Assembly: GCA_016795485.1 (NCBI GenBank) | Contig: JAEUHM010000026.1 | Location: 62,001 to 126,000, forward strand | Length of the DNA: 64,000 bases | Direction: 5' to 3' | Source: Verrucomicrobiaceae bacterium | GTDB lineage: Bacteria > Verrucomicrobiota > Verrucomicrobiia > Verrucomicrobiales > Verrucomicrobiaceae | In this document: positions 12,852 to 64,000 of the stretch, piece by piece | How positions within the stretch are numbered: the stretch's first letter is position 1 | Layout of the letters: every line of letters starts with the position of its first letter | The notes under the pieces: model-generated | What the model saw: the letters and a program-made list of their open reading frames with translations, nothing else | Databases searched by the model: none | Told to the model about the DNA's origin: nothing | Program-made: the position numbers and the translations under genes

Positions 12852-13581
12852 GGGCAAGAGATTGTACGAGGTAACGCAACTCCGCATCGATCTCAGCCGA
12901 GGTTGCAGCTGGTCCCAGTGTAGCTGCTACCTCCGCACGCAGCCGGTCGGCCATCCGGCGGCGTAAGCGATGGACTTCAATGCGTATTTGCTGTTCTCCC
13001 ACGCCAAACTGAGAACCGATTTGCACTGAAGGTTGCATCTCATCTGGAGAAATCAGCGCGGGTTTCAGTGCCGCAAACAACTCCCCTTTGCCGCGGCTGG
13101 CATAAGACTCCGCCAGGGCCGTCATTGATCTTTGGAAGAGAGTCCAGGCCCAATGTTGATCAAAGGCTTCATCTGTCGCCATATCCGAGACCGGAGCCTG
13201 ATCATCATGGAGTTGGTCCGTGCTCAGCACTCCCACACCGCCTCCACGCTTCTGTCGCGACTGATCTCGGAAGTGGTTGGCCAGCGCATTGCGGGCTGCT
13301 GCTTTGAAAAAATGCCGCAGCCTGCCTTGCGCGCGATCCACGGTCTCTATCCAGCCGTCAGTGCAGAAGTTGGCCAGGATGCTCTGCGTGAGATCCTCTG
13401 CATAGCCAGCGTCCATGCCGAGTGTTTTTAGATAAGAGCATACCGGCTGCCAGTATGCCTTGCACACCGCTTCCCGCGCCTCCCGTGCCGTGGCAGAAGA
13501 TGGATCGCGTGCAGCCAACAGCACTGTCCACGCCGTAGGCGGGAAACTGCGGTCATGCGAGCGCTGATCGGGGGCAAACAT
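12835..13581 (-). CDS. ECF-type RNA polymerase sigma factor
   Basis: A 248-residue protein with sigma-70 region 2-like sequence (YAEDLTQSILANFC, then GRLRHFFKAAARNALANHFRD) and a C-terminal helix-turn-helix-like region (QFGVGEQQIRIEVHRLRRRM). Length and sequence fit the ECF sigma factors of planctomycetes and verrucomicrobia that are commonly encoded next to a Ser/Thr kinase. The ATG at 13581 is preferred over an upstream TTG. The gene overlaps the start of the kinase gene downstream by 17 bp, which suggests that the kinase modulates this sigma factor or its regulon. It is divergent from the giant DUF5650-like gene, a possible target given the shared upstream region; that last point is inference. 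Confidence 0.88.
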   Translation of the reverse strand: MFAPDQRSHDRSFPPTAWTVLLAARDPSSATAREAREAVCKAYWQPVCSYLKTLGMDAGYAEDLTQSILANFCTDGWIETVDRAQGRLRHFFKAAARNALANHFRDQSRQKRGGGVGVLSTDQLHDDQAPVSDMATDEAFDQHWAWTLFQRSMTALAESYASRGKGELFAALKPALISPDEMQPSVQIGSQFGVGEQQIRIEVHRLRRRMADRLRAEVAATLGPAATSAEIDAELRYLVQSLAHERTS

Positions 13582-13694
13582 TGGCAAAAACTAGCCCACA
13601 ACTTTACTCCATGCAGCGGGCTGCTGAAAAAACTTCATCTCGGGTGCAACTTCGGCGGCTGAATGGTTCTCAGGGCAATGAATCCGCCCATTCC

Positions 13695-16600
13695 ATGAGA
13701 CATTTTCTTTTTTGCTTCTTCGTTGTCGTCTCGTCTCTTCGTGCCGCCATTCCGGTCGACATTGAAGGGCCCGCAGGCAGCGGCGCGTTCGGTACTTTTG
13801 CTGTAGTGTTGCCCAATGGCAATGTCGTCGTCACTGACCCTCTTTTTGATCGACAGATTCCCGTCGTGGCCGATGTGGGCGCGGTATATCTCTATCGGCC
13901 GGATGGTACGCTCGTCAGTCGCATTACTGGCACTTCAGCGGGAGATCAGGTGGGCAGCGGCGGCGTGGTCGTCCTCGGTTCCGGGCACTTCGTGGTGCAG
14001 AGTCCGCTTTGGGACAATGCAGGTACTGTCGATGCGGGTGCGCTTAGTTTTGGCAATGCGGACACCGGTTTTGATGTTGGAGTGCTGGAGAATGTTACTT
14101 CCGCCAACTCGTTGGTGGGCACTCATACTAACGACATGGTGGGCGGCTCACGGCCTTACCCTTTGCCAAATGGGCACTACGTTGCTTTGACCTCCCGCTG
14201 GGATAACGGTGCTGCTACCGATGCCGGAGCAGTGACTTGGGGCGATGGATGGGAAGGCGTGAGTGGTGCCGTGTCTGCCGGGAACTCCCTGGTGGGCAGC
14301 ACCACGAATGACCGCGTTGGTATTGTTGGAATGCAGGCATTGAGCAGTGGAAACTATGTCGTCCCTGTGGAGGGCTGGGATGACGGTCCTACCGTAGACG
14401 TGGGAGCTGTGGTTCTGTGCCGTGGCTCCGCTAGCACGGTCGGCACCATCACCAGCGCTAATGCGCTCATTGGCAGCACCGCTGGGGATAGCGTTGGCAG
14501 TGGCGGCATCTGGATTTTGAAGAATGGCAACTTTGTAGTGTCCAGTCCTGAGTGGGACAACGGTACCGCAGTGAATGCTGGTGCTGCTACTCTCGTGGAC
14601 GGCGTCTTGGGCCTTGTTGGCAACGTGAGTGACTCAAACTCGCTCGTGGGCAGTGCCACAGACGACTACATTTCTACCGATGGCATACTGTCTTTGGCCA
14701 ATGGCCACTATGCTGTTTTTAGCTCCGTCTGGGATGGCGCTGCTGTCGATGTGGGCGCTGTTACTTGGGGTGACGGCTTTGCTGGAGTCACGGGGCCTGT
14801 TTCAGCCGCCAACTCGATTGTCGGTAGCACGGCGAGCGACCAGATTGGGCAGGCACGTGGCACTGCGCTCTCCAACGGCCACTACGTGATCAACTCTCCA
14901 AGTTGGGACAATGGTGGAATCGTCAACGCAGGAGCCGTAACATGGGCTAACGGAAATGGACCCACCACAAGTGTCGTCTCCACGGCCAACTCCCTCCACG
15001 GCACAACCAACTCCGACGAAGTGGGCAGCTATCAGGTGCTTGGGCTCAATAATGGCAATTACATCGTTCCATCTCCCATTTGGGACAACGGCAGCGCGGT
15101 GGACGCTGGCGCGGTGACATGGTGCAACGGCTCCAAGGGCCTCTCAGGACCTGTTAGCAGTGCCAACTCTCTTGTCGGAACCACTTCATTCGATCGCATC
15201 GGCTCTCAGTCGACCAATCTCATCAATGGAAACTATGTGGTCAGCAGCGAGTCGTGGGACAACGGTTCCGTCGTTGACGCGGGGGCAGTCACCTGGGGCA
15301 GCGGCACGAAGGGAGTGAAAGGCCCCGTCTCAAAGTCCAACTCCCTCGTCGGCACCTCCGATCAAGACGGTGTTGGCCAGGCGATCTACGCACTCCGCAA
15401 CGGCAACTACGTCACGCTCAGCACCAAATGGCATAACGGTAGCCCGAACAACGTCGGCGCGGTCACCTGGGGCAACGGTATGAGCGGGGTAAAAGGCGCC
15501 GTCTCAGCTGCCAACTCGCTCATTGGTGAGCGCGACTCCGACTTCGACAATCCCCGCGTTACGCCCCTCTCCGGCGGCCATTACGTGGTGGTATCAGAGA
15601 CGTGGAATGACGGCAGAGGCTCTGTCACTTGGTGCGATGGCACCGCTGCGACCAAGGGCGTTGTGAGTGCCACCAACTCACTCATCGGCAACCTCACCAC
15701 TGACGAGTTGGGAAGCGGCGGAGTGGTCCCGCTTGCCAACGGCAACTACAGTGTCAACAGCCCAAGCGTCAGCCAACTCGGCGTCTCGGAGGTGGGAGCG
15801 GTTACGTTAGGGAACGGAGTCTCGGGCACGGTCGGTCTCGTTTCTCCGCAGAACTCTGTTTTTGGCCAGACGGCGCTAGGTGGGCTGTCCGTCAGGTCCG
15901 CACGGTCGGCGAATGTCTCCTCACAAACCCTGGTCGTCACCAGACAGCTTGAAAACATCATCACGCTCTTTGGCACTCACTTCCCCCGCTCACTCGCCAG
16001 GACCACTGCTGCTGCACCGGGCGCTCAGGACATCGCCTATTCCGCGCTCGGCAGCGCGGCTGTCAGTGCTGCTGGCAGCGCGCTCTTTGACGGTACCCTC
16101 ACAGGTGCCGGGTCCAAGGCAGGCAAAAACAAAGGCGTGTTCGCCACACCCTGGTATGACGCACCCATAGACATGGTCCTGCAGAGCGGAGCCGTGGTGG
16201 GTGGTTATGATGATGTTAGGGAAATCAATGCCACAGCCACCGGTTTCAGCAGTCTCCTCAACCTCCAATACGGGCGCGGCGTCTTTCAAGGCACTCTCAG
16301 TGGCTCCGGCATCACCAGTAGTAACAACAAAACCATTCTCGTCGACAGCGGTGCTTACGTCATGCCCATCTTCCAAACCGGCCAGCCCACGCCGGGCTTG
16401 GGTAGTGCAAAAGTCTCCACTATCAGGGAACTCCTCCAGGCGGAACGCACTGACATGCTAGTCCTCAGCTACACCCTGGCTACCAGTACCGGCGTCAATA
16501 GCAGCAACGACTCAGGCATTCTCATCCTAAGCCACGGCGGCGGCATCAATCCCAATGCCACGATCGCCAGAGAAGGCAGCGCGGCCTTCGGTGGTGGCAC

Positions 16601-17549
16601 GCTCGGGCAGCTTTCGGGAAAAGCTGCAGCCGGGCAGGACGTCATTCACTTCACCTCAAGCTTCAAACCCTCCTCCGGCTCTACAGCAGATGCCATTTTC
16701 CGTTTTGATAGCGATGGAACCAGTGCAAGCCGTGTCGCACTCGTTGGCGAGTCACCACCCGACATCACTGGCGACTCCGATGCTGCTACGGTGAAGTTCT
16801 CCAGCTTCCCCGCCCTCAGCAAGCACACCGGTTTAAGCAGCGATGATGCCCTGTTCAAAGCCATCCTGAAAAGCGGTGATTCAGCACGCAACGAAGGCAT
16901 TTGGCGACTGCCCAACACCGATACCCCCACAGACCAACGCCTAGCCCGCAAGGGCGACCAAGTCACCGGCCTGCCCACAGGAGTTGTCTTCAGCAGCTTC
17001 ACACGATTCTGGCCCGCAGATCGAGATCAAGTCATCATCCAGGCAAAGATCTCCGGCCCAGGTGTATCATCATCTAACAATCAAGTGTTAGCCCTTAGAC
17101 AAGCAGATGGGAACTTCCTCGTTCTCATGCGCACAGGTGACAGCCCCGATGGAATCGGCACCGCCAAGATAACCACCTTCTCCGCCGTGGAGGTAGAGCC
17201 GGACAACGGCATCTACGTCGTCCTTACCTCTCTCAGCGGAGCGCCAACCAACGCCAACCAAGTCCTCTGGATTGGGGCAACCGGGGCCGGAGCAGATAGT
17301 CCGGCCGATAAGCAAGCCCTCCGCCTTCCCCAGGTGCGTCTCCGCAAGGGCGAGCGCTACAGCTCGCCTCAGACGACCAGCGCGGTGATTAAGAGCATCA
17401 GCATGAAACCCTTCACCGACTCCACGGGAGCCGGAGGCCGCGGCCTCTCCCGCTGCATTTCCTCTGTAGGCAGCATAGCCGTCCACCTCCTCACCGACCG
17501 CAACACCACCGAGCTTGTCCTACTCCCTCCGCTGTTTGCCGCTGATTGA
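13695..17549 (+). CDS. Giant secreted protein with DUF5650-like repeats
   Basis: A 1284-residue exported protein. ATG 13695 gives a clear signal peptide (MRHFLFCFFVVVSSLRAA); the longer in-frame start at 13581 does not. Residues about 70-730 are some 11 tandem units of roughly 60 residues built on NSLVGSTxxDxVG, LxNGNYVVxSPxWDNG and AGAVTWGDG, the pattern of the DUF5650 repeat. They probably form a beta-propeller or beta-solenoid. The last 500 residues change to another repeating beta-rich pattern with SGxGxxSSNNxxxL and FQTGQPTPGLGSA. No PEP-CTERM, LPXTG or autotransporter barrel is visible at the end (LVLLPPLFAAD). The role is likely surface or adhesion, by family style only. Directly behind the stop comes the first 21-bp repeat array. 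Confidence 0.85.
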   Translation: MRHFLFCFFVVVSSLRAAIPVDIEGPAGSGAFGTFAVVLPNGNVVVTDPLFDRQIPVVADVGAVYLYRPDGTLVSRITGTSAGDQVGSGGVVVLGSGHFVVQSPLWDNAGTVDAGALSFGNADTGFDVGVLENVTSANSLVGTHTNDMVGGSRPYPLPNGHYVALTSRWDNGAATDAGAVTWGDGWEGVSGAVSAGNSLVGSTTNDRVGIVGMQALSSGNYVVPVEGWDDGPTVDVGAVVLCRGSASTVGTITSANALIGSTAGDSVGSGGIWILKNGNFVVSSPEWDNGTAVNAGAATLVDGVLGLVGNVSDSNSLVGSATDDYISTDGILSLANGHYAVFSSVWDGAAVDVGAVTWGDGFAGVTGPVSAANSIVGSTASDQIGQARGTALSNGHYVINSPSWDNGGIVNAGAVTWANGNGPTTSVVSTANSLHGTTNSDEVGSYQVLGLNNGNYIVPSPIWDNGSAVDAGAVTWCNGSKGLSGPVSSANSLVGTTSFDRIGSQSTNLINGNYVVSSESWDNGSVVDAGAVTWGSGTKGVKGPVSKSNSLVGTSDQDGVGQAIYALRNGNYVTLSTKWHNGSPNNVGAVTWGNGMSGVKGAVSAANSLIGERDSDFDNPRVTPLSGGHYVVVSETWNDGRGSVTWCDGTAATKGVVSATNSLIGNLTTDELGSGGVVPLANGNYSVNSPSVSQLGVSEVGAVTLGNGVSGTVGLVSPQNSVFGQTALGGLSVRSARSANVSSQTLVVTRQLENIITLFGTHFPRSLARTTAAAPGAQDIAYSALGSAAVSAAGSALFDGTLTGAGSKAGKNKGVFATPWYDAPIDMVLQSGAVVGGYDDVREINATATGFSSLLNLQYGRGVFQGTLSGSGITSSNNKTILVDSGAYVMPIFQTGQPTPGLGSAKVSTIRELLQAERTDMLVLSYTLATSTGVNSSNDSGILILSHGGGINPNATIAREGSAAFGGGTLGQLSGKAAAGQDVIHFTSSFKPSSGSTADAIFRFDSDGTSASRVALVGESPPDITGDSDAATVKFSSFPALSKHTGLSSDDALFKAILKSGDSARNEGIWRLPNTDTPTDQRLARKGDQVTGLPTGVVFSSFTRFWPADRDQVIIQAKISGPGVSSSNNQVLALRQADGNFLVLMRTGDSPDGIGTAKITTFSAVEVEPDNGIYVVLTSLSGAPTNANQVLWIGATGAGADSPADKQALRLPQVRLRKGERYSSPQTTSAVIKSISMKPFTDSTGAGGRGLSRCISSVGSIAVHLLTDRNTTELVLLPPLFAAD

Positions 17550-17577: not shown

Positions 17578-17894
17578 AGCCCCGAGCGCTCAAGGGACGC
17601 CCTTTTTGGGGCGGAGGGATGGTTTCTTGCGGCAGGGGACAGACTTTTTGTGGGAGGAGACGAAGTTTTTGCGGCTGGAGACGCCGTTTCTGCGGCTGGG
17701 GACCGAGATTTTTGAGTTTGGAGGCGTGTCTCCTGTGGCAGGGGACTGAGTTTTTGCGGCTCGAGACGTGTCCCCTGTGGTTGGAGACTGAGTTTTGTGT
17801 GGTTGGGGACGTGTCTCCTGCCTCAGGGGCCCGCGCTTTCGCCGCTGGAGACTGCGCTTCTGCGGCTGGAGATTTGTCTCCTGAGACAGGAAAA
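17578..17894. repeat. 21-bp tandem repeat array 1
   Basis: About 15 head-to-tail units fill the space between two convergent giant genes (stops at 17549 and 17979). Unit boundaries after each GGAGAC or GGGGAC fall at 17598, 17619, 17640, 17661, 17682, 17703, 17725, 17746, 17767, 17788, 17810, 17831, 17852, 17873 and 17894. All units are therefore 21 bp, except two of 22 bp. The commonest form ends GTTTTTGCGGCTGGAGAC. Every few units a GTGTCTCCTGTGGCAGGGGAC form appears, which is close to palindromic. Units are diverged (about two thirds alike by eye). There are no unique spacers, so it is not a CRISPR. The remaining bases up to 17978 show nothing recognisable. Confidence 0.9.
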
Positions 17895-27213: not shown

Positions 27214-27366
27214 GGGTGTGGAGTTTGCGGATTGCGTTCTGTAAACACCAGCAAAAAAGCAGAATCAGTATTGGTGAAACCTCAACTCCCGGCCCGATGT
27301 TTGCTTCACACTCGTCGTTGCTTTTGGCTGGGCTGCTTGTTAGGTCCGCGCGCTTCTCATTTCTGC

Positions 27367-30300
27367 ATGAAATCCTATTCCCGCTTCTTCTGGTCACTAG
27401 CTGTTTGCCTGTTAGCCTCTGCACCGCTTCTGGCTGTTGCCCAGGGCCCTCTGGCCCAGGTGGCTTATGTGAAACCTAGTGTGGTTGACCCGAACTTCAG
27501 CTTTGGTTCTTCGGTGGCGATCTCTGGGGACACGGCGGTAGTGGGAGCCTACCAAAGGAACAATGAAACTGGGGCTGTGTTTGTGTATGTGCGGGCCGGT
27601 GATGGCACTTGGTCGGAGCAGGCCATCTTGCAGGCCGGAGTGCCGGGATACATGAACCAGTTTGGCTGGAGAGTGGCGATCTCTGGCGACACGCTCGTGG
27701 TGGGTGCTCCTGGAGAGGGCAGTGGGGTCACTGGGATCAATGGTAACGAGAATGATCAATCGTCGTTCTTTGCCGGAGCTGCCTATGTTTTCACCCGCAC
27801 GGCGGGCGTCTGGACGAAGCAGGCCTATCTCAAAGCCAGCAACACAGGCTTTGTGGATCGGTTTGGCTCGTCGGTGGCGATTGATGGGGATACGATCGTT
27901 GTGGGTGCTGAGGGTGAGTCCAGCAGTGCCACCGGTGTGGGTGGTGACGAAAACGATGACAGTGCCTCCAATGCAGGCGCGGCGTATGTCTTTACCCGCA
28001 CGGCGGGGACGTGGAGCCAGCAGGCTTATCTGAAGTCCATCACTCGCCATACGACCTCGGGTTACGGTGACAAGTTTGGCTCGGCAGTGGCGATCTCGGG
28101 TGACACCATCGTGGTGGGTGCTCAGCATGAAGGCAGCAGCGCTACAGGTGTGGACGGCGACCACGCGGTGGGAAATGCGTCTCAATCGGGTGCTGCTTAT
28201 GTTTATCTCCGCACAGCAGGAGTTTGGGCAGGGCAGGCTTATCTCAAGGCCAGCAATACCGGTGTGGGAGATAAGTTCGGCTACTCCGTCTCCATCGCTG
28301 GTGACAGCATTGTCGTGGGTGCTCCCTTTGAAGACAGCATCGCGACCGGGATGAATGGAAATCAAGCGGACAACAGCTTTGACGCATCAGGCGCGGCTTA
28401 CCTTTTTGAACGTACGGGTGCGGCTTGGGCTCAGCAGGCTTACGTGAAGACCAGTCAGCACATGCAGAATCAGCAGTTTGGTGTCTCCACCAGCATGTCA
28501 GGTGACCAGATGGTCATAGGCGCTCAACGTGATAGTAGTATGGCACTCGGAGTGGGTGGTGCACAGAACGTCTTGGCAGGCGAAAACGTGGGTGCCGCTC
28601 ATCACTTTAAGCGTGCAGCCGGTGTGTGGGGATTTGCCCATTACATAAAGGCGAACATCCCCAGTGACAACGATCTCTTCGGCATCTCGGTGGCCATCTC
28701 TGGCGATACCATCGTAGCAGGTGCCCAGGGCGAGGACAGCAGCACTTCAGGCATCAACAACCCGCCCACCGGGTTCCGTATACCCGGTCTTGGAGCAGCC
28801 TACATTTACTCTCCGGTGAACGTGACGCCTTCCGTTGTGCAACTTCCTGACATCACGGTGAACACCATCGGCCAGCGCGGCGGCAAAGGAGGCACGGTGA
28901 CGGGTGCGGATAACATCCGCGGCTTTGGCTCGTCCAGCAGCACGGCCTTCTCGGGTGCTACCGTTTATGCAGGCGATACCGTCCGAGTCCGCATCAAGCC
29001 TCCTGCGGGCAAAAACTTCCGCCTTGAGCCAGGCTACGGGTTCGTGGTGGCAGAGGCAGAGTTTGGCATTCAAATGCTGCCGCGTGATGTAGGTGGGGCT
29101 ACCTTCAACTTCAATGTGACCAGCGGCCCAGGATTCACACCTGTGTTTGGAGATAGCCGGTGGAGCATCAGCAACAGTGGCATTGGCATGACAGCGATCA
29201 GCTACAGTCAACCTTCAGCCGCCATCACGGCCAACTACGTCGACGTGAGCTTCACTTCAACTGTGTCTGCTCCTTTGCCTGCCAAGCCGTTTGCGACTCT
29301 GGTTTTCTACACTTCAGGCTCTACCAACTACCCCTACCTCAGCCTCGTGGATGCAGTAGCACCCGCCAACAACGCTCCCACTAACATCGCTCTGAGCAAC
29401 GCCACCCTGGCAGAAAACAATGCTCCGGGTGCCACCGTGGGCACGCTGACCGCTACGGATGCGGATGCTGGCGATACCCACACGTTTTCGTTAGCAGGTG
29501 GAGCGGATGACAGCGCGTTTACCATCACCGGAACCACCTTGAGCCTCAACGGAAGTGCCGACTACGAGACGAAGAGCAGCTACAGCATCCGAGTGCGGGC
29601 AACTGACAGTGGTGTGGGCAATCTCTTCTTTGAAAAAGACTTCACTGTGACCATCCTGGATGTGGATCAGCCCCAGAGCATCACTTTCAACCTCCCTGCC
29701 TCCGCTTTGCCCACGGATACGGTCACGCTGACTGCCACAGGTGGCCCGAGCGGCAATCCGGTGACGTTCCAGGTCGTTAGCGGCCCAGGCTCCATCACGG
29801 CGGGCGTGCTGAGCTTCACGGCTAGAGGGGATGTGGTTGTGCGCGCCTCTCAGTTAGGCTCTGGCGACTACACCGCTGCACCAGATGTGGAGAAGACAAT
29901 CACCGTGCTCAATCGCGCTCCTGTGGCGGAGGATGACTTTGTTACCTCAAATCTGGCCACCGTGGTCATCTCTCCTCTTGGCAATGACAGCGATCCTGAT
30001 GGCGATACGCTCACCATCATCGACGTGGGTGATCCTGGCACCGGAAGTGTGACCACGGATGGCACCACCATCACCTATGTGAAGGACACGACCACGTTCG
30101 ACGACCAAGACGGCTTCACCTACACGGTCAGTGATGGCATGGGCGGCACCAGCACCGCTGCGGTGATCCTCGCCACCTATGGCAGCCTAGCAGGTAGCTA
30201 CACCGGACTGCTCGATGACGGCAATGGTCGTGCGGATGGCATGTATCGAGCCACGGTGGGCACTACGGGCATCGTTACCGCACGTTGTTTCATCAATGGC

Positions 30301-31212
30301 CGCTCGCTGGCGATGAATGGACGCTTGGATACCAATGGATTCGATACTCTCTCCAGCGGCGGTGTGGATTTCACCTTACAAGCCCAGGCAGCCAACGCCA
30401 TTCCAGGTGAGCCGCGTCAGCATCTGCAAGTTACTGCACTGGACACGGGTGTGACTTACACGGGCAATGCCATCGCCCATCTCTACTCCAACAGCAGTCA
30501 GGTTCCTCCGGCACAAATCGGCAACTACAACACCGCCCAGACCGCTGTGGCAGGTCAGAGCGGCCTGCCAGCATCACCAGGATGGCTGCGGGTACTTGTT
30601 ACCAAGAATGGCAACGTGACCATCAGTGGTCGTGCACCGGATGTGCTGCCTGTGAGCGCGGCGTCTGCCATCGTGGAAGGCGGCGAGATCGCCTTCTATG
30701 CCAATGCTGTCGGCTCCAATCCGAAGAGCGAGTATGGTGGCCAGTTGAGCATCACCCTCGGCGGTGCGGTGACTGGAGCACTCACTTTTGACAAAACCGT
30801 GCAAAGTGTGGCCAAGGGCGCATTCCATGCCACCGGGTTCAGCGGCAACTACGAGACCAGCGGTGGCTTTTACATCGTACCTGCTGCTGGGGAGCGCATC
30901 CTGACCACCAACGGAGCCGGGGGAGTGACCGCCACGTTCACGGGAGCAGGTTACGCCTCGCCATTCAGCAAGAGCCTCACCCTGACCACCAGCAACACCT
31001 TTACCGCTCTACCCAGCCCCCCATTGAGCGCACTGACGCTGCGTACTGCCTCCGGCATCCTTGGCGGCAGCGTGAAGTCACCAACGAACACCACCATGGT
31101 CATCACTGGGCTGGCAGTGCCCACCGGCGGCAGCGTGCAAGCCATCGGCTGCTTCCTTTACACCACGGGAGCCTATGAAGGTGGCGAGGTAAAGGTCATC
31201 GCGGCACCGTGA
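27367..31212 (+). CDS. Giant secreted FG-GAP repeat protein with cadherin-like domains
   Basis: A 1281-residue exported protein; ATG 27367 starts a signal peptide (MKSYSRFFWSLAVCLLASA). The first 460 residues hold seven FG-GAP units of about 65 residues (FGSSVAISGDTIVVGAxxE, then GAAYVFTRTAGxW), with DGDxxxx acidic loops typical of a calcium-binding seven-bladed propeller. Next comes a stretch of unknown fold, then a cadherin-like domain (NIALSNATLAENNAPG, DADAGDTHTFSL), an Ig/Big-like unit (ITFNLPASALPTDTVTL) and a cadherin_5/Big_9-like unit (DSDPDGDTLTII, FTYTVSDGMGG). The final 400 residues form a beta-rich module also seen at the end of the subtilase. It is likely a surface adhesin or matrix protein. 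A palindrome and repeat array 2 lie directly downstream. Confidence 0.88.
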   Translation: MKSYSRFFWSLAVCLLASAPLLAVAQGPLAQVAYVKPSVVDPNFSFGSSVAISGDTAVVGAYQRNNETGAVFVYVRAGDGTWSEQAILQAGVPGYMNQFGWRVAISGDTLVVGAPGEGSGVTGINGNENDQSSFFAGAAYVFTRTAGVWTKQAYLKASNTGFVDRFGSSVAIDGDTIVVGAEGESSSATGVGGDENDDSASNAGAAYVFTRTAGTWSQQAYLKSITRHTTSGYGDKFGSAVAISGDTIVVGAQHEGSSATGVDGDHAVGNASQSGAAYVYLRTAGVWAGQAYLKASNTGVGDKFGYSVSIAGDSIVVGAPFEDSIATGMNGNQADNSFDASGAAYLFERTGAAWAQQAYVKTSQHMQNQQFGVSTSMSGDQMVIGAQRDSSMALGVGGAQNVLAGENVGAAHHFKRAAGVWGFAHYIKANIPSDNDLFGISVAISGDTIVAGAQGEDSSTSGINNPPTGFRIPGLGAAYIYSPVNVTPSVVQLPDITVNTIGQRGGKGGTVTGADNIRGFGSSSSTAFSGATVYAGDTVRVRIKPPAGKNFRLEPGYGFVVAEAEFGIQMLPRDVGGATFNFNVTSGPGFTPVFGDSRWSISNSGIGMTAISYSQPSAAITANYVDVSFTSTVSAPLPAKPFATLVFYTSGSTNYPYLSLVDAVAPANNAPTNIALSNATLAENNAPGATVGTLTATDADAGDTHTFSLAGGADDSAFTITGTTLSLNGSADYETKSSYSIRVRATDSGVGNLFFEKDFTVTILDVDQPQSITFNLPASALPTDTVTLTATGGPSGNPVTFQVVSGPGSITAGVLSFTARGDVVVRASQLGSGDYTAAPDVEKTITVLNRAPVAEDDFVTSNLATVVISPLGNDSDPDGDTLTIIDVGDPGTGSVTTDGTTITYVKDTTTFDDQDGFTYTVSDGMGGTSTAAVILATYGSLAGSYTGLLDDGNGRADGMYRATVGTTGIVTARCFINGRSLAMNGRLDTNGFDTLSSGGVDFTLQAQAANAIPGEPRQHLQVTALDTGVTYTGNAIAHLYSNSSQVPPAQIGNYNTAQTAVAGQSGLPASPGWLRVLVTKNGNVTISGRAPDVLPVSAASAIVEGGEIAFYANAVGSNPKSEYGGQLSITLGGAVTGALTFDKTVQSVAKGAFHATGFSGNYETSGGFYIVPAAGERILTTNGAGGVTATFTGAGYASPFSKSLTLTTSNTFTALPSPPLSALTLRTASGILGGSVKSPTNTTMVITGLAVPTGGSVQAIGCFLYTTGAYEGGEVKVIAAP

Positions 31213-31313: not shown

Positions 31314-31607
31314 GTCTCCAGCGCCAGAAGCGCAGTCTCCTGTGGCAAGAGACACGTCTCCAGCGCCAGAAGCGCAGTCCCCTGCGGCAGGAGACACGTC
31401 TCCAGCGGCAAAAACGCTGTCCCCTGCGGCAAGAGACACGTCTCCAGCGGCAAAAACGCCGTCCCCTGCGGCAAGAGACACGTCTCCAGCGGCAAAAACG
31501 CTGTCCCCTGGGGCAAGAGACGCGTCTCCAGCGACAAAAGCGCCGTCCCCTGCGGCAGAAAAAGCGTCTCCAGCGGCAAAAACCGCGTCCCGTGGCGAAG
31601 ATGAGTT
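31314..31607. repeat. 21-bp tandem repeat array 2, perfectly phased, 42-bp higher-order period
   Basis: Fourteen units begin with GTC at 31314, 31335, 31356, 31377, 31398, 31419, 31440, 31461, 31482, 31503, 31524, 31545, 31566 and 31587: every step is exactly 21 bp. Two unit types alternate strictly: GTCTCCAGCGGCAAAAACG (odd) and GTCCCCTGCGGCAAGAGAC (even). The even type is near-palindromic, best at 31377-31395. The core is the reverse complement of the array 1 unit. Identity between like units is high, much higher than in array 1, suggesting recent amplification or homogenisation. It lies between the FG-GAP gene and the deacetylase gene. The bases from 31608 to 31719 are AT-rich and probably hold the deacetylase promoter. 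Confidence 0.95.
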
Positions 31608-31719: not shown

Positions 31720-32805
31720 ATGCCACTTCAAGGACTCAGTGCGGGTGTGTTTGCTTCACACCTGATGGCCCGGAGCGGGTTGTCGGCGCTTCTGAGGCGC
31801 TGGCGGCACGGTGAGGCCTGCGTGTTGACGTTTCACGGCCTGCGGGAGCATGAGTCGGGCGCGGGTCTCTTGGACCTCGCCTGCCACAGTTGGGCGGAGC
31901 ATTTTCGCAAGTTGTGCCTGCATTTGCGGAAGAGCTACCGGGTGATCGCTGCCCGGGAGCTGGTGGATGCCTTGCAGATGGGCGAGGAGGTGCCGGAGCG
32001 GGCTGTCGTGCTGACGTTTGATGACGGGTATGCCTCCAACTATCACCTAGCACTACAGATTCTTCATGAGCTAGACCTCCCGGCAACGATCTTTGTGACG
32101 ACCGGGTATGTGGATGGGGCCATGCTGCCCTGGTTTGTGAGGCTGGAGTCGGCTTTGGCCCGCTCAGACAAGGCGGAGCTGACTTTGGGGCGCGAGGTGT
32201 TGCATTTGAGAAATGAAACCGAGCGCCGTGAGGCCTATGGGTTGCTCTGTGCGGAGTGGAAACGCCAGCCCCATGAGCAAGCGATGGCCTGGCTGGCAGA
32301 CCTTGAGCGCTCTCTGGCCGTTGCGACCGCGAAAGTAGCCGAGCTTCCACCGCATTTGCAGCCGATGACATGGGACATGTGCCGCGAGATGAAGGCGGGT
32401 GGGCTAGCGGACTTTGGCGGCCACACGCACACGCATCCGGTGCTAGCACGCATGGATGAAGCGAATCAGCGCACGGAACTACAAAACTGTGCGGCACGTT
32501 TGAAGACGGAGCTCGGGGCAGGGGGCGGGTTGTTCGCCTACCCGAATGGCAAGCAAGGCGACTTTGGCCCAGGGACTCTGCTAGAACTGAAAGCAGCAGG
32601 CTTCACGGCGGCCTTCACCATGAACGAAGGGCTGGTGCAGCGTGCCGATGAGCTGCTCCAACTCCCGCGCTACGGCAGCCCGGAAGATGTAGTGATGCTG
32701 GAGGCTACCGCGAGCGGCGGTGTGGCCTATCTTCAGAGAGCTAAGGCGATGCTGAAGCCTCTGCCACGGAACTCGCATGTGTCATGCGGCGAACGCCCCG
32801 AATGA
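31720..32805 (+). CDS. Polysaccharide deacetylase family protein
   Basis: A 361-residue NodB-homology (CE4) protein. Marks are VLTFHGLREHES, the metal-site motif AVVLTFDDGYASN, ATIFVTTGYVDG, the HxxxH-like GGHTHTHPVL and a C-terminal FAYPNGKQGDF. These enzymes remove acetyl (or formyl) groups from N-acetylated sugars using a divalent metal. No signal peptide is evident, so it may act on intracellular or lipid-linked sugars during export-polymer assembly. Its stop overlaps the start of a GT4 glycosyltransferase gene (ATGA at 32802-32805), which supports a polysaccharide biosynthesis role. The pairing with a GT4, and with acyl-ligase/decarboxylase genes nearby, recalls exosortase-type exopolysaccharide loci. 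Confidence 0.88.
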   Translation: MPLQGLSAGVFASHLMARSGLSALLRRWRHGEACVLTFHGLREHESGAGLLDLACHSWAEHFRKLCLHLRKSYRVIAARELVDALQMGEEVPERAVVLTFDDGYASNYHLALQILHELDLPATIFVTTGYVDGAMLPWFVRLESALARSDKAELTLGREVLHLRNETERREAYGLLCAEWKRQPHEQAMAWLADLERSLAVATAKVAELPPHLQPMTWDMCREMKAGGLADFGGHTHTHPVLARMDEANQRTELQNCAARLKTELGAGGGLFAYPNGKQGDFGPGTLLELKAAGFTAAFTMNEGLVQRADELLQLPRYGSPEDVVMLEATASGGVAYLQRAKAMLKPLPRNSHVSCGERPE

Positions 32806-63753: not shown

Positions 63754-64000
63754 ACAGATTTCCTGCGGCAGGAGACAGATTTTTTGCCTCTGGAGACGAG
63801 ATTTCTGTCGTTGGAGACGAAGTTTTTACCGTTTGGGACAAGGTTTTTGCCGCTGGAGACAGGTTTTTTGCCATTGGGGACAAGGTTTCTGCCGCTGGAG
63901 ACGTGTCCCTTGCCGCAGGAGACCGAGTTTTTTTCCGTTTCGGGCAACGTTTTTGCCGTTGGAGACACGTCCCCTGGCGTTGGAGACTTGTCCCCTGCCG
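63754..64000. repeat. 21-bp tandem repeat array 3 (runs off the right edge)
   Basis: Unit ends (GGAGAC/GGGGAC and variants) fall at 63753, 63776, 63797, 63818, 63839, 63860, 63881, 63902, 63923, 63945, 63966 and 63987. The steps are 23, 21, 21, 21, 21, 21, 21, 21, 22, 21 and 21 bp; a further unit is cut by the window end. Units read GTTTTTGCCGCTGGAGAC or GTCCCTTGCCGCAGGAGAC, the same family and orientation as array 1. It lies upstream of the longer PQQ gene (start 63551). The 200 bp between 63552 and 63753 show no gene and probably hold its promoter. Confidence 0.9.

Follow-up and report, generated by a model that had tools for sequence, protein, structure and literature searches.

The array A2 is related to a class of arrays with a 21-bp phase, which most often lie upstream of genes of one family, the MKPLTWD family, and are enriched in dyads; where they are gene-linked, they avoid stop codons, mainly on the sense strand of the downstream gene. 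A2 itself has a homogenised core. Tentatively, and with somewhat less than even confidence, we propose that the gene-linked arrays are transcribed, translation-permissive leaders with helically phased dyad sites, and that A2 is a dispersed, gene-less copy. The class is apparently undescribed, as no description of it was found in the open-access literature. A2 is located in the window, i.e., the whole stretch of 64,000 nucleotides that was analyzed (C35:62001-126000), which is part of a source genome of 6.5 Mb in 61 contigs. The features are collected in Table 1.

Table 1. Positions of A2, its relatives and adjoining genes (window coordinates unless a contig is named)
Feature	Position	Strand	Remarks
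Array A2	31314..31607	+	14 units, starts 31314, 31335, ... 31587; 42-bp alternation of half-dyad/A-tract unit, then full-dyad unit; no indels; between co-directional genes
Homogenised A2 core	31398..31523	+	three near-identical 42-bp repeats, 39-41/42 identical
Hairpin + T-run (terminator-like) motifs in A2	31418..31557	-	5 found vs 0.8 expected
Gene 5' of A2, FG-GAP/cadherin/Big_9 protein	27232..31212	+	ORF from first start codon; true start likely further in
Gene 3' of A2, polysaccharide deacetylase (PF01522)	31720..32805	+	29 orthologues in relatives lack an upstream array
Array A1	17622..17894	-	~13-14 units; A2-type motif; two steps of 22 bp; flanking genes convergent
Array A3	63755..64008	-	~13 units; passes window end at 64000; between divergent genes (PQQ-like, FG-GAP)
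Array A4	C14:335492-335764		~13-14 units; just 5' of FN3-domain (MKPLTWD family) gene; co-directional
22/44-bp-period arrays	C14:40071, 92352, 230861, 361461; C46:1, 64054, 184086, 256344; C47:242956		own genome

Structure of A2 and its relatives

All 13 spacings between the units of A2 are exactly 21 bp, and indels are absent. The fourteen starts in exact phase over 294 bp, which a sequence-only reading had described, were thus reproduced, and the strict 42-bp alternation was also seen. Unit position 7 alternates between A and T across all 14 units, and the agreement between units amounts to 18.2 of 21 positions when their parity is equal and to 12.9 when it is opposite. TRF reported a 42-bp unit in 6.6 copies (score 391), and the self-identity at lag 42 was 0.92; the regularity is not due to chance. 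The two consensus units of the sequence-only reading fit only the centre of the array (31398-31523): variant sequences occupy units 1-4, unit 12 is a hybrid of the even and the odd type, and unit 14 is degenerate. As stated before, the even unit is nearly self-complementary, and its two C.A mismatches on the plus strand are G.U wobbles on the minus strand. The A-tract was indeed located in the odd units; it is peculiar to the sub-family of A2.

The identity of the 42-mers of A2 declines with their distance (36.5, 35.6, 33.8, 33.0, 29.5, and 25.0 of 42 positions), the centre is homogeneous, and the edges have diverged (down to 25/42). Such a decrease from centre to edges is the usual mark of slippage or unequal exchange that is recent and proceeds in steps of 42 bp. 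A2 has therefore probably been homogenised in this way, one of the two alternatives that had been offered for its regularity. In this homogenisation A2 agrees with prokaryotic satellites or minisatellites, and likewise in its internal regularity and in its unit length and number, as such arrays consist of four or more tandem units of 10-200 nt. A CRISPR array was ruled out, because the units are contiguous and no unique spacers of fixed length separate them; the neighbours are the FG-GAP and deacetylase genes, and cas genes are not among them.

A sequence-profile search with A2-type units revealed only four arrays in the genome, A1 to A4. A1, A2, and A3 are situated in or at the edge of the window, and A4 on another contig. 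A1, the "Array 1" of the sequence-only reading, and A3, a third array, are thus relatives of A2. The four arrays differ in their gene settings (Table 1), there is no homology between their flanks, and the likeness stops at the array edges. Free indels, which the sequence-only reading had named as the result that would speak against its view, do occur, but rarely: a few +1 or +2 steps are present in A1, A3, and A4, and none in A2. When the unit of this genome was searched as an exact pattern in the genomes of 84,980 species, only four scattered single matches in unrelated bacteria turned up, so the unit sequence is lineage-specific. The same is true for the A2 site, because a 21-bp array was found upstream of none of 29 orthologues of the neighbouring deacetylase gene in other genera. 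The genes beside A1, A2, and A3 (window 13581-17549 and 27232-31212; L097 6120-8828) encode large repeat proteins with DUF5650, FG-GAP, DUF7453, and cadherin-like domains, and the surroundings are possibly a surface-protein region.

The layout of A2 was also found, with drifted sequence, in one genome of genus g10 (G009) and two of genus g9 (G044 and G053). In these arrays 10-12 half-sites of one strand follow each other at exactly 21 bp, and those of the opposite strand mostly recur every 42 bp. The G044 array is located between a Ser/Thr kinase gene and a MKTLFWD-type gene at a contig start, which is the position of A4, and the G053 array directly precedes a homologue of A4's neighbour with 66% identity. 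Since place and layout are the same across genera and the sequence has drifted, the 21/42-bp layout is older than the present unit sequences. The other earlier suggestion, selection on spacing, is thus supported by the retained layout and by the 21-bp multiples that recur, independent of unit sequence, in front of one gene family described below. Arrays of genus g4 (GTCTCC...ACGCC) showed a superficial likeness to A2-type arrays. In another genus, 21-bp arrays of the type GTCTCCCACCCCGGTCACGCC were found (G013 C202, C237, and C255, G019 C75; L103-L107); some of these are capped by the hairpin GGATTCGGCAAATCCGCCCTCGGATTTGCCGAATCC, and several are at contig ends. An array on G004 C76 was rejected as a relative, because it is a Ser/Pro coding array.

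Arrays upstream of an FN3-domain gene family

The neighbour of A4 encodes a protein of 286 aa, which is a member of the multicopy MKPLTWD family. The family has 17 matches in the own genome, is present in 33 of 68 genomes of the bacterial family, which by its gene content resembles Verrucomicrobiaceae, and is sporadic outside of it. The protein has no assignment in Pfam, NCBIfam, or PADLOC and no convincing PHROG match, and phage homologues of the gene were not found. In the AlphaFold2 model (pLDDT 90) a small beta leader is followed by a helical domain, and an FN3 domain forms the C-terminus. In fold searches with this model only the FN3 domain matched known structures, the helical domain had no standout match, and no DNA-binding fold was detected.

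The Trp-rich N-terminal leader (MKPLxWD..NPxTGxPYTWDDPNLRWGDPSYxLEPGDPGF; L096:8616-9476 and homologues; L253) is also fused to unrelated ORFs. A Met before the motif KRQxYYPSR is invariant in all 36 family sequences compared, and thus this internal Met may be the true start. Many family copies are situated at contig ends (in the own genome C53, C25, C31, C41, C47, C18, C19, and C42), which suggests that the assembly breaks at the locus or at its array, and the copy number is therefore perhaps underestimated.

Upstream of the family genes the strongest autocorrelation was at 21, 42, or 63 bp at 36 of 44 loci, which are the best protein matches with enough upstream DNA rather than a random sample, and related loci among them are not independent. 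Downstream of the same 44 loci there was essentially no signal at these lags, at most a weak one. The deacetylase orthologues, used as control gene, contrast with this value by their 0 of 29 upstream arrays. With array borders drawn with lag 21 in mind, there are usually 50-120 bp between the end of a gene-linked array and the start codon of the FN3 gene. The unit sequence is specific for each locus, but it is common to related proteins across genomes (L216/L219/L223 and L235/L246), and the paralogues on C41 and C47 share both unit and gene.

A helix-turn-helix gene of the XRE or LuxR type was found upstream of the array at at least 13 loci, and downstream at none. Regulator genes are present at only about a third of the loci and are of differing types. 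At A4 and G044 a kinase gene takes the place of the helix-turn-helix gene, and at G044 an ECF-sigma-like gene was recognized by eye beyond the kinase.

In motif and layout A2 matches the gene-linked arrays A4, G044, and G053. Motifs common to gene-linked and gene-free arrays within one genome were found twice, namely for A4 with A1-A3 and for C4:222k with C4:120k. Relics of a MKPLTWD-family gene were not detected near A1-A3. As these three arrays have no adjacent family gene, A2 is a relative of the gene-linked class and not a full member.

Period, dyads and reading frames

A scan of 1.27 Mb of the 6.5-Mb genome revealed windows of at least 50% self-identity mainly at two series of lags, i.e., 21, 42, and 63 bp (13, 13, and 14 windows) and 22, 44, and 66 bp (6, 8, and 5 windows). 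The remaining lags between 13 and 69 had 0-4 windows each, and most lags that are not multiples never reached 0.5. The units of the 13 period-21 arrays are largely unrelated in sequence. The second, intergenic class with a period of 22/44 bp is exemplified by GGGTATCGG...GGGGTG / ATACCC...GAGGGGTA, and some of its arrays have dyads. A length of 21-22 bp corresponds to two helical turns and 21 bp to seven codons, and both fit the period; the helix is the better fit, since there is also a class of 22 bp.

Dyads were evaluated against a null in which the unit columns were permuted, which keeps composition and repetition and breaks symmetry. A significant dyad (p<=0.05) was present in 24 of 42 arrays, while 2 were expected; some very homogeneous arrays had none. 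On each strand 23 of 39 arrays folded better than the null, with nearly the same z on both (-2.02 vs -2.15), and mismatches in the dyad arms were about equally G.T (118) and A.C (129). The row of hairpins that had been proposed for RNA or single-stranded DNA of A2 thus finds its counterpart in the class-wide dyads, but a strand preference or a mismatch bias of the RNA type was absent. Because no strand is favoured and G.T and A.C are balanced, a role of the dyads at the DNA level would fit at least as well as a role in RNA.

The sense strand of the gene-linked arrays contained 111 stop codons, compared with 270 expected, and the antisense strand 208 compared with 318. An open sense frame was present in all 34 gene-linked arrays (25.6 expected), and the antisense strand had no excess. 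Based on the stop depletion and the open frames, the gene-linked leaders look translation-permissive. The stop-codon test reopened the initial non-coding reading, which was derived from the +1 steps and the 22-bp arrays. A2 itself is open in five of six frames and is uninformative on coding.

Explanations and known systems

According to the explanation that we tentatively prefer, the class has its home just 5' of MKPLTWD-family genes, in a putative leader that is often bordered on its other side by a regulator gene. Transcription would run through the gene-linked array, whose dyads would lie on the same face of the DNA at intervals of two helical turns and form a multivalent binding site. This site would tune how strongly the FN3 gene is expressed, and ribosomes would still have access to the leader. 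Through turnover in steps of 21/42 bp, caused by unequal exchange or slippage, the sequence would change and the phase persist. A2 would have arrived between the FG-GAP and the deacetylase genes in this lineage only, and would either give the deacetylase gene the same input or be a passive by-product. Several results argue against this explanation. The family protein has no DNA-binding fold in its model, and a binding protein is only putative. The regulators at a third of the loci differ in type, and at A4 the neighbour is a kinase. A leader makes no sense between the convergent genes at A1, and stop avoidance suggests translation, which a pure operator does not need. Some very homogeneous arrays lack a significant dyad, and the A2 site is not conserved, so that any function of A2 itself is hypothetical. 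It is rather doubtful that this is a previously undescribed module of the Verrucomicrobiota, composed of a regulator gene, a translation-open, locus-specific dyad array with 21-bp helical phase, and the gene of a leader-helical-FN3 protein. In such a module the array sequence would drift fast with period and dyad kept, and the arrays could seed gene-less copies like A2 that bring new genes under the same control.

The main and strong rival is plain satellite turnover, followed by a heptapeptide-coding ORF. As plain satellites, the arrays would be functionless by-products of slippage or unequal exchange at hairpin-prone DNA that were copied around, and the linkage to the FN3 gene would be due to co-duplication. 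The textbook homogenisation and the lineage-specific site of A2, gene-free arrays in convergent, divergent, and co-directional gaps, and the C41/C47 paralogues are all in line with this; still, we regard it as unlikely on the whole, as it leaves unexplained the one fixed period across unrelated units, the dyad excess, the open-frame excess on the sense strand only, and the layout of the A4 locus retained across genera after sequence drift. The heptapeptide repeats (21 bp = 7 codons) would belong to a small upstream ORF that extends to the FN3 start with an ATGA or TAATG junction and is translationally coupled, and the phase would reflect frame maintenance. Apart from the open frames in all 34 arrays, this would account for the favoured frame f1, which reaches the start codon at many loci and has 5 stops compared with 42 and 28 in the other frames (p ~0.01 taking loci as independent). 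The third positions of f1 are slightly more variable (p 0.025), and when A-type units are pooled, conservation is lower in one of the codon-position classes. Nevertheless, orthologous array pairs had no third-position excess, +1/+2 steps break the frame in A1, A3, and A4, several frames are open simultaneously with unclear start codons, and 22-bp arrays exist, which makes the coding explanation quite improbable. Least probable is an RNA element, i.e., a transcribed row of small hairpins that acts as antitoxin-like RNA, stability element, or tandem terminators. A2 folds better than its shuffles (z -4.0 on the plus and -6.3 on the minus strand), its minus strand carries the five motifs with T-runs, and an array placed in front of a protein gene is reminiscent of toxI-toxN. 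Against it stand the absence of strand preference and G.U bias and the confinement of the T-tracts to the sub-family of A2, where they are antisense to co-directional neighbours. Furthermore, the FN3 protein matched no toxin or defence family, and Rfam had no match near the gathering score, only chance-like ones below threshold.

In type III toxin-antitoxin systems (toxI-toxN) a tandem array with units of about 35-45 nt is located directly upstream of a protein gene. In contrast, the units here have 21 bp, an RNA strand bias is absent, and so is a recognised toxin; this system was rejected, as the FN3 protein, without a match in the databases named above, is not recognizable as a toxin of the ToxN/CptN/TenpN type. 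Iterons and phased operator arrays consist of repeats about two helical turns apart, have dyads, and are found beside the gene of a regulator or of a target. The spacing of two turns, the dyads, and the nearby regulator or target gene are shared with the arrays described here, which differ in that no replication or partition gene was seen nearby, many unit sequences exist per genome, and binding is putative.

REP/BIME elements are short intergenic palindromes, sometimes in tandem, and are present in some Verrucomicrobia (PMC3733652). The arrays differ from them by the strict tandem 21-bp phase, in place of scattered singles or pairs of 20-40 bp, and by the locus-specific sequence. Among the genes adjoining A1-A4 there was no transposase, such as the RAYT that accompanies GTAG/CGTC-tagged palindromes. 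Prokaryotic satellites have tandem units of 10-200 nt, dispersed copies, and concerted change (Subirana and Messeguer 2019, PMC6749651), and dispersed intergenic families are present in Leptospira interrogans; dispersed non-coding families with long repeats were found in that survey only in Leptospira and Methanocella. The arrays share the tandem short units, the dispersed copies, and the concerted change. They differ by one period of 21, also 22, bp over unrelated sequences, by their dyads, and by the position upstream of one gene family. The class also draws attention to the FN3 protein family, which is unclassified and deserves study. Satellites of bacteria are usually regarded either as noise from mutation or as markers for typing. 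A constant period combined with variable sequence and one gene family raises the question whether the spacing or the dyad, and not the sequence, is selected, and the many linked and unlinked arrays per genome are natural replicates for the birth, homogenisation, and co-option of satellites.
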